Origin: Bacteroidia bacterium
Lineage (GTDB): Bacteria; Bacteroidota; Bacteroidia; B-17B0; Aurantibacillaceae
Assembly: GCA_022841465.1 (NCBI GenBank)
Contig: JALHRL010000006.1
Span: 70,065 to 134,064, forward strand
Reading direction: 5' to 3'
DNA length: 64,000 bases
Shown here: in pieces, positions 50,362 through 52,068 of the stretch
Position numbering within the stretch: position 1 is the first letter of the stretch
Layout of the letters: each line of letters begins with the position of its first letter
The notes under the pieces: model-generated
What the model saw: the letters and a program-made list of their open reading frames with translations, nothing else
What the model was told of the DNA's origin: nothing
Databases searched by the model: none
Program-made: the position numbers and the translations under genes

Positions 50362-52068
50362 ATGGATAATTTTATTGTTTCTGCCCGAAAGTATCGCCCT
50401 CAACATTTTAACACAGTTGTTGGGCAAAGCCATATTACATCTACCTTAAAAAATGCCATTGTACAAAAGCAGCTAGCGCAAGCTTATTTGTTTTGCGGGC
50501 CCAGGGGCGTGGGTAAAACAACCTGTGCACGTATTTTTGCCAAAACCATAAATTGTTTTAATGTTTCTGCAAACGGCGAGGCTTGTGATAAATGCGAATC
50601 CTGTATGTCGTTTAATTCAGGTGCATCCTTAAACATTTATGAATTAGATGCAGCCAGTAACAATTCTGTTGATGATATTAGAAATTTAGTAGACCAGGTA
50701 AGGTTTGCACCTCAGTTAGGCGAATATAAAGTGTATATTATTGACGAGGTTCACATGTTAAGCACGCAAGCTTTTAATGCGTTTCTTAAAACATTAGAAG
50801 AGCCGCCAAAACATGCAAAGTTTATTTTAGCTACAACAGAAAAACATAAAATTATTCCCACCATATTATCGCGATGTCAGGTTTTTAATTTTAATAGAAT
50901 TAAAACAGAAGACATAAGCGGACATTTAGAGTTTTTAGCCAAAAGTGAAAAAGTAAGTTTTGAACCGGAAGCCTTACACGTTATTGCACAGAAAGCAGAT
51001 GGAGGATTAAGAGATGCTTGTTCTATTTTCGATCAAATGGTTGCCTTTACCGGCAACAATTTAACCTATAAGCAAGTTGTAGAAAACTTACACGTACTTG
51101 ATTACGATTACTATTTTACTTTAACAGAAGCCTTTTTAAACAATAAACTACCACAGGTAATGGTAATTTTTGATGAAATTCTGAAAAAAGGCTTTGATGG
51201 TCATAATTTTGTTTTAGGCTTAGGGGAGCATTTAAGAAACTTATTGGTAAGTAAAGATTCTCAAACTTTGGTTTTATTGGAAGTAAGTGATTCGTTAAAG
51301 AAGAAATATGCTGAACAAGCAGGGAAATGCGAAACACAGTTTTTATTAAGAGCATTAAATTCTATAAGTAAAACCGATGTAAATTATAAAGGCGCTAAAA
51401 ACCAGCGTTTATTGGTGGAAATGATGCTTTTATCTATTTGCCAATTAACCGGAGCTATTGAGGCTGAAAAAAAAAACGATGAACCTTTAGTAGAAACAAA
51501 ATCTTCTAATGCAAATTCATCAGGGCCTTATGTTTCAAAAAGCGAAGAGCCGCAAATAAAAACAGCAACAAAACCTGTTCTGTCTTTACAAGAAATAAAA
51601 AGCGCTTCATTTTCTTTAAAAAGTGCTTTATCAGATGTTGGTCACCCCAAATCAACCGCTGCTCCCGAAAAAGAAGAAAAGCCTGTTGAATATGTAAATG
51701 GAGAAATAAAAGTAGAGTTAATAAAAGCGGCTGTAATGCGTTATGCAAAGTTTAAAGAGCCGGTTTCAAAAAGTATTTTTATTTCATTAGAGAGCTGCGA
51801 TTTAAATTTAACAGAAAGTAACGGAATTATTGTAACCTTACTTAATCATTCGCAGTTAGAAAAGTTTAATGAAGTAAAACAAGAAATGCTTGATTTTATT
51901 AGAAAAGACTTAAAAAACAATATTGTTACTTTAATGTTTCAGATAAAAAACGATGACAGTGCAGTAATAAAAGTATACAAGCCAATTGAAAAATTTAAAG
52001 TTTTAAGCGAAGCCAATCCGGCACTTCTTGAATTAAAAAAAAGATTTGATTTAGAAATTGATTACTAA
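50362..52068 (+). CDS. dnaX: DNA polymerase III subunit gamma/tau
   Basis: It is the clamp-loader ATPase of the replicase. The 568-residue protein begins with RKYRPQHFNTVVGQ and has Walker A GPRGVGKTT (46-54), a zinc module with four Cys (CFN, ACDKCESC), Walker B VYIIDEVHML, LEEPP and the SRC motif (ILSRCQVF). Domain III ends near residue 368. The rest (about 375-568) is the variable tau-specific region, with a linker and a C-terminal domain. An A10 run at 51467-51476 (codons 369-372) falls exactly at that boundary; reading in the -1 frame ends after AAA CGA at TGA. This would give a gamma-like product of 373 residues. Confidence 0.96.
   Translation: MDNFIVSARKYRPQHFNTVVGQSHITSTLKNAIVQKQLAQAYLFCGPRGVGKTTCARIFAKTINCFNVSANGEACDKCESCMSFNSGASLNIYELDAASNNSVDDIRNLVDQVRFAPQLGEYKVYIIDEVHMLSTQAFNAFLKTLEEPPKHAKFILATTEKHKIIPTILSRCQVFNFNRIKTEDISGHLEFLAKSEKVSFEPEALHVIAQKADGGLRDACSIFDQMVAFTGNNLTYKQVVENLHVLDYDYYFTLTEAFLNNKLPQVMVIFDEILKKGFDGHNFVLGLGEHLRNLLVSKDSQTLVLLEVSDSLKKKYAEQAGKCETQFLLRALNSISKTDVNYKGAKNQRLLVEMMLLSICQLTGAIEAEKKNDEPLVETKSSNANSSGPYVSKSEEPQIKTATKPVLSLQEIKSASFSLKSALSDVGHPKSTAAPEKEEKPVEYVNGEIKVELIKAAVMRYAKFKEPVSKSIFISLESCDLNLTESNGIIVTLLNHSQLEKFNEVKQEMLDFIRKDLKNNIVTLMFQIKNDDSAVIKVYKPIEKFKVLSEANPALLELKKRFDLEIDY
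51467..51476 (+). promoter_or_regulatory. A10 slippery tract in dnaX
   Basis: The in-frame reading is GAA AAA AAA AAC GAT. With one A added, or a -1 ribosomal slip, it becomes GAA AAA AAA AAA CGA TGA and stops. With one A lost it gives AAA AAA ACG ATG AAC CTT TAG and also stops. Slippery A runs at this point are known in dnaX genes, for example Thermus (transcriptional slippage) and E. coli (ribosomal frameshift). Confidence 0.6.

Follow-up and report, generated by a model that had tools for sequence, protein, structure and literature searches.

Does the run of ten A residues within a Bacteroidia dnaX gene serve to produce two clamp-loader subunits, gamma and tau, from one ORF? The question is raised by a 64,000-nucleotide stretch of DNA (the window), on which an earlier note had pointed to such a run in dnaX and had claimed that its retention suggests use. 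Larsen et al. (2000) are said to have described an A9 run in Thermus thermophilus dnaX as a site of programmed transcriptional slippage. Slippage of Thermus dnaX at a run of nine is also treated in PMC5009743, and truncating cases of this kind are considered hard to judge by comparison (PMC1088944). E. coli produces gamma from the same gene by internal recoding at a comparable place (PMC5009743, PMC3711429). In the study of Antonov et al. (2013), 17 two-ORF dnaX genes spread over 12 genera were presented; nine carry 10 A's, three Chlorobi species are named as having 7-9 A's, and transcriptional realignment was put forward for the two-ORF genes (PMC3711429).

Experimental Procedures

Searches with the full dnaX protein returned dnaX-like matches in 60/60 relatives, 57 of which were usable; G033, G045 and G049 (no or partial dnaX) were left out of this set. 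With the clamp-loader core as query, dnaX was found in 82/87 genomes of the order and in 146/148 genomes of the phylum sample. In the order set, G033, G065, G068, G079 and G091 gave no match, and in G064, G082 and G095 the contig end came first. From the 109 matching genomes of phylum members outside the class, 54 were taken, chosen by hand to spread genera. A total of 187 dnaX genes was analysed. A run was scored when at least nine A's occurred in an interval that opens 45 nt ahead of the end of the clamp-loader match and closes 240 nt beyond it. Named dnaX loci came from another collection. Statements on the literature refer to excerpts of the cited articles.

The A10 run lies at the gamma/tau border of dnaX

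The dnaX product of the window matches PF13177, PF22608, PF12169 and TIGR02397 and scores 757 bits against NCBIfam PRK14971 (cut-off 685). The features of the gene are given in Table 1. Codon 369 lies 4 residues past the end of the PF12169 match (Pfam domain III, residues 236-365) and 9 residues past the end of the TIGR02397 match (residues 6-360), and the place that the earlier note had assigned to the run, at the end of the clamp-loader domains, is thus exact. Past the run, the -1 frame reads AAA CGA TGA (K-R-stop) and ends the 373-residue product that had been claimed for a -1 shift. The +1 frame reads ACG ATG AAC CTT TAG (T-M-N-L-stop), and here too we found the early TAG that had been announced for the loss of one A. 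Stops in both non-tau frames are located within 1-3 codons of A10. Unlike the two-ORF genes of Antonov et al. (2013), the window dnaX is a single ORF, in which the tau C terminus shares the frame of the N terminus.

Table 1. Features of dnaX and its A10 run in the window
Feature	Position	Strand	Remarks
dnaX, clamp-loader gamma/tau subunit	50362..52068	+	568 codons plus stop; full frame = tau
Clamp-loader core, domains I-III, residues 1-362	50362..51447	+	common to tau and predicted gamma; conserved
Weak 4-bp stem AGCU-AUUGA-GGCU	51453..51465	+	-3.7 kcal/mol, z 0.1; not significant
A10 slippage run (candidate)	51467..51476	+	codons 369-372, GAA AAA AAA AAC
Tau-only linker and C-terminal part	51477..52065	+	frame 0 in window
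TGA capping -1 frame (A11 transcript or -1 shift)	51480..51482	+	predicted gamma, 373 residues
TAG capping +1 frame (A9 transcript)	51488..51490	+	predicted gamma, 375 residues

The run is conserved across most of the phylum sample

A run of at least nine A's is present at the gamma/tau border in 161/187 dnaX genes: in 38/38 of the genus (window included), 41/41 of the rest of the family, 49/54 further members of the class and 33/54 of the phylum members taken from outside it. Of 575 same-size control windows in the same dnaX genes, most of which are located in the domain-coding part, 11 contain such a run. Among 80 named loci, 62 have a run of at least nine, one has A7 and 17 have none; this set includes Pedobacter, Mucilaginibacter, Hymenobacter, Rufibacter, Dyadobacter, Chitinophaga, Sphingobacterium, Aequorivita and Muricauda. 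The length is exactly A10 in 129/161 run-bearing genes, and within the family it is A10 in 74 and A11 in 5 of 79 genomes, the window's own included. The run is found in all three codon phases (120, 28 and 13 of 161 genes), which indicates that the nucleotide run is being kept and not just its lysines.

It could be argued that an AT-rich gene has simply happened to tolerate such a run, and that no second product with a function arises from it. Codon usage lends this reading some weight, with AAA accounting for 79% of the Lys codons upstream of the run in family genes and GAA for 72% of its codon pair, and among 19 conserved Lys columns compared in 37 genes, one other column is AAA throughout, as are the two of the run. 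In addition, the genome contains a small number of further A10 runs. The window has an A+T content of 67.5%, and an order-3 Markov model predicts about 2 A10 and 3 T10 runs per 64 kb, where we observed one A10 and no T10. Only 3 A/T runs of at least nine occur in the window, versus about 20 expected from the same model, and we read this scarcity as selection against slippage-prone runs. Runs of 6-7 are slightly more frequent than the model predicts, and those of at least nine are below expectation. The whole 3.77-Mb genome holds four exact A10/T10 runs, and a search of it for A/T runs of at least 11 found none. Besides the dnaX run, these comprise one in the gap between two long ORFs and two inside ORFs (L217 1579-1588 and L218 1572-1581, one of which starts at the sixth codon). 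The genome has cleared long A runs yet retained A10 in dnaX. Exact A10/T10 totals differ among congeners, and since such runs do persist elsewhere (three more here, 27 in all in G001, 37 in G031), an A10 run taken alone is no proof of function.

Several findings speak against chance. The run is kept in 79/79 family genomes, always as A10 or A11, despite large synonymous divergence (pS 0.32-0.86 in 18 hand-picked pairs, above 0.6 in 12), and the synonymous interruptions in close relatives that would have contradicted the earlier note were looked for in these genomes and not found. The run is also present where the GC content of the dnaX stretch reaches 71%, as in G044, whose 3.7-Mb genome has it as its sole exact A10/T10 run. 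Finally, the tau C terminus is out of frame in 52 run-bearing genes, with purifying selection acting on it in the pairs tested (see below). We therefore regard a run tolerated by chance as highly improbable.

Both alternative frames are capped, and tau changes frame among relatives

The frame in which tau continues after the run is 0 in 109 of 161 genes, -1 in 49 and +1 in 3, and among the 62 run-bearing named loci it is 0 in 45, -1 in 16 and +1 in 1; these calls are less sure where a contig end cuts the gene (G008, G044, G078 and G148; L275 and L277 of the named loci). We compared the stops near the run in these related genomes. Both non-tau frames end within six codons of the run in 98/109 unshifted and 45/52 shifted genes, well above the 18% of control linker positions. 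Among unshifted genes, such a stop caps the -1 frame in 60/60 family members (null 56%) and in 48/49 others (null 37%), and the +1 frame in 60/60 (null 45%) and 39/49 (null 33%), respectively. A population of transcripts with several A-run lengths enters all three reading frames. The +1 frame is capped, yet it would never be entered by a -1 ribosomal shift, and transcriptional slippage thus fits better.

On a quick family tree with long branches, the tau frame changes its state 10 times, 8 of which are forced by starred branches. We estimated dN/dS for the tau C-terminal part in pairs picked by hand, the values being rough where dS is high: it amounts to 0.08-0.35 in the 9/10 both-shifted pairs that were measurable, to 0.08 in one mixed pair and to 0.04-0.11 in the 3/7 measurable unshifted pairs. 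In the pairs tested, purifying selection therefore acts on the shifted tau part, and a change of frame at or near the run must make tau in these species. Separate initiation of the tau C terminus was considered as a different route and rejected: the median distance from the run to the first ATG in the shifted frame is 102 codons (30 or fewer in 4/52 genes, no ATG in 3), which renders such initiation unlikely.

Sequencing errors cluster in homopolymers, and the shifted genes could accordingly be sequencing or assembly errors, in which case they would not demonstrate use of the site. Indeed, G019 and G081 (A11, +1) differ by a single A from A10 sisters, and these two of the three +1 cases could be assembly errors. 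However, 42/52 shifted genes have exactly A10, many match their sisters in offset and downstream sequence and fall into groups that are starred on the family tree, and two shifted genes outside the family come from one-contig genomes (G163, G201). Error as a general explanation for the shifted genes is barely conceivable to us. Conservation, capped frames and relatives that need a frame change for tau together support the view of the earlier note that retention of A10 suggests use, and from these sequence comparisons we consider it very likely that the dnaX run would be programmed to give dual products.

Polymerase slippage is a more probable explanation of the run than ribosomal frameshifting

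Dual products could also be generated by a programmed -1 ribosomal frameshift on A_AAA_AAN as in E. coli, where the run would merely supply a slippery heptamer, and the product would be gamma, or tau in shifted genes. A -1 change is what 49/52 shifted genes require. The run ends in AAG, as in the E. coli site A_AAA_AAG, in 35/49 of the -1-shifted genes versus 18/109 unshifted ones, and shifting in E. coli is far more frequent on A_AAA_AAG than on A_AAA_AAC or A_AAA_AAA (PMC5009743). In the family, the final G of this AAG may, however, simply come from a conserved Asp codon. Further, a heptamer needs about 7 A's, yet the usual length is 10 in every codon phase, and 91/109 unshifted genes lack AAG, the window among them, where A_AAA_AAC and no in-frame A_AAA_AAG is found. 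That the +1 frame is capped as well is likewise not accounted for by a -1 shift.

We also searched for the stimulatory elements of the E. coli site. A downstream stem-loop was rejected as a general feature, because the 40 nt 3' of the run have a folding z-score below -2 in only 9/159 genes; none was found in the window (40 nt, -2.2 kcal/mol, z -0.1). An upstream Shine-Dalgarno (SD)-like stimulator is nearly absent, with 5/161 run-bearing genes having a candidate, and no such sequence was seen upstream of the window run. SD sequences are not recognised by Bacteroidia ribosomes (PMC9976891), and a stimulator of the E. coli type is thus not to be expected. Together, these findings make ribosomal frameshifting an unlikely, if still serious, explanation of the run.

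Slippage by RNA polymerase would explain the length kept in every codon phase, the caps in both frames, the frame swaps in two directions and the hairpin found 5' of the run (see below). The RNA-DNA hybrid has a length of 9-10 bp (PMC5009743), which matches A10. The evidence on mechanism leans to the Thermus type, that is, to RNA polymerase slippage, over the E. coli type. We consider it probable, as judged from sequence, that A10 is a programmed slippage site making gamma and tau, and we have about the same confidence that RNA polymerase would be the main enzyme to slip.

A hairpin abuts the run in many relatives

For the 28-nt segment immediately 5' of the run, the median folding z-score is -2.9 in the genus (29/38 genes below -2), -3.5 in the rest of the family (28/41), -1.7 in other Bacteroidia (20/47) and -0.2 in the rest of the phylum (3/33); these scores, like those for the 3' 40 nt, were calculated for 159 genes, including 47 rather than 49 other class genes. 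In the family, 18-nt windows at the run edge have a mean energy of -7.1 kcal/mol, compared with 0 to -1.7 for other positions. Outside the family, there is a small dip at the run edge (-2.6 in the rest of the class, -2.1 in the rest of the phylum). A perfect stem of at least 6 bp is located within 3 nt of the run in 21/38 genes of the genus and 22/41 of the rest of the family (43/79 in the family), in 17/49 of the other class genes and in 4/33 others, compared with 2-4% of control positions. The family stem has the consensus CCGCATC-nnnn-GATGCGG, and the stem of family f27 has another sequence in the same geometry (CTCTATCA-nnnn-TGATGGAG).

The hairpin abutting the run covaries in the family. 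Against a shuffle control that is inflated by relatedness, 82.5% of the stem cells are paired versus 75.1%, the covariation score is 0.224 versus 0.105, 32 cells are changed on both sides versus 7.7 (0/500 shuffles) and 5 pairs are changed on both sides versus 3.1 (32/500). When the stem partners are slid by 1-3 columns, the covariation score reaches at most 0.102, and 24-42% of the cells pair. A slide by -3 yields 33 both-side cells and 22 pair types versus 17, but 41.6% of cells paired versus 82.5%.

At the window run, no stem of at least 5 bp was found; the corresponding place holds a 6-7-bp stem in over half of the family. The degenerate stem of the window (Table 1) speaks against a role for a hairpin in its own genome, and slippage here would rest on A10 alone, as in Thermus.

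dnaX loci without an A run

A run of at least nine A's is absent from 26/187 analysed genes and from 18/80 named loci. Many of the 17 named loci without a run are titled Bacteroidales or Bacteroidaceae, and a Bacteroides sp. (L247) is among them. Three run-less dnaX loci from uncultured Bacteroidales or Bacteroidetes (L265, L280 and L282), with N-terminal parts that are 74-84% identical, contain an in-frame TAG at the gamma/tau border (first base 2788, 3099 and 3102, respectively). All three share the sequence ATTGC[A/T]AGG after this TAG, beyond which the tau C-terminal part goes on without a change of frame. UAG readthrough instead of slippage is possible in these loci. A pattern search for more in-frame-TAG dnaX genes in 395 genomes gave 16 matches, none of them in dnaX, and a search of the class with the L280 protein placed 4/295 genomes above the strict cut-off; the number of such dnaX loci thus remains three.

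In L254 (a Bacteroidaceae MAG), L247 and L269 (a Cryptobacteroides MAG), GGGGCGTAG is located just past the clamp-loader match, again in the absence of an A run; the site of L254 contains a G7 run. The -1 frame of these loci holds a TAG, and frame 0 is open in the available DNA. Perhaps GGGGCGTAG represents another slippery site. In L268, which also has no A run, the tau C-terminal part is found in the +1 frame at the end of the clamp-loader match, reflecting either an assembly error or another recoding event.

Discussion

We propose that RNA polymerase would slip at A10 and thereby yield dnaX transcripts with differing A counts. Transcripts with 10 A's (or 10 +/- 3) would encode tau, and the others would meet the TGA or TAG within the next 1-4 codons, so that a gamma-like subunit some 373-375 residues long would be produced. 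The roles would be swapped in 52 of the 161 run-bearing genes, with the encoded frame giving gamma and slippage giving tau. In the more than half of the family that has the stem, a hybrid of 9-10 bp lying wholly in A10 would allow the hairpin at the run edge to form in the RNA exit channel, where it could then promote realignment; the position and covariation of this element suggest that it may stimulate slippage. Both products are presumably present in the window organism, as conservation, capped frames and relatives needing a frame change all suggest.

The arrangement resembles Thermus thermophilus dnaX in that an A run marks the gamma/tau border of a single-ORF gene, stops are near in both other frames, and slippage would give gamma. 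It differs in that the run is A10 rather than A9 and belongs to another phylum, in that a covarying hairpin sits at the run in more than half of the window's family, a feature that the excerpted descriptions of Thermus do not mention, and in that tau, not gamma, depends on a frame change in 52/161 genes. Compared with E. coli dnaX, the window has neither A_AAA_AAG nor the SD-like element nor the downstream stem-loop. Penno et al. (2015) reportedly described hairpin-stimulated slippage of a Roseiflexus IS element. In this element, a nascent hairpin 5' of the slippage motif stimulates slippage (PMC5009743), and many of our dnaX genes likewise have an inverted repeat directly 5' of the motif, which is degenerate in the window. 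The Roseiflexus motif is T5C5, with a one-base deletion in a transposase gene, as described in the same excerpt; here, a homopolymer A10 lies in a gene for DNA replication, where frame use is mostly -1.

Slippage of the Thermus type is already known, as are two-ORF dnaX genes with A10 (PMC3711429). The -1-shifted relatives share the A run and the -1 frameshift at the DNA level with the cluster of Antonov et al. (2013), unlike the window with its single ORF, and neither single-ORF A10 counterparts nor a 5' hairpin are mentioned in the excerpt of that study (PMC3711429). Among the matches listed in our search of the literature on dnaX slippage and Bacteroidetes frameshifting, judged by title and start of the abstract, we found no description of the single-ORF A10 dnaX group or of an abutting hairpin. 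As far as this search shows, both the single-ORF A10 group and the covarying hairpin abutting the run appear to be new. A hairpin-driven slippage site in a housekeeping gene would, to our knowledge, be the first of its kind. We tentatively put forward, as an idea that could well prove wrong, that in Bacteroidia dnaX a terminator-like hairpin together with a homopolymer of hybrid length forces the polymerase to slip rather than stop. Gamma and tau would then be made in a set ratio, the device would have persisted across a large part of the class through repeated flips of the encoded frame, some lineages, including that of the window, would have lost the hairpin, and the A run would be an older trait of the phylum.

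For annotation, our findings imply a warning, since shifted dnaX genes resemble truncated or broken genes. The covarying hairpin next to an A run of hybrid length makes productive slippage of the polymerase driven by nascent RNA testable in a cellular gene. The frame swaps represent natural swap experiments, in which one and the same element would be responsible for gamma or for tau, depending on the species, and its efficiency must thus be substantial. Slippage in dnaX would in this way extend from Thermus and odd two-ORF genes to a device present in most of the phylum members sampled.
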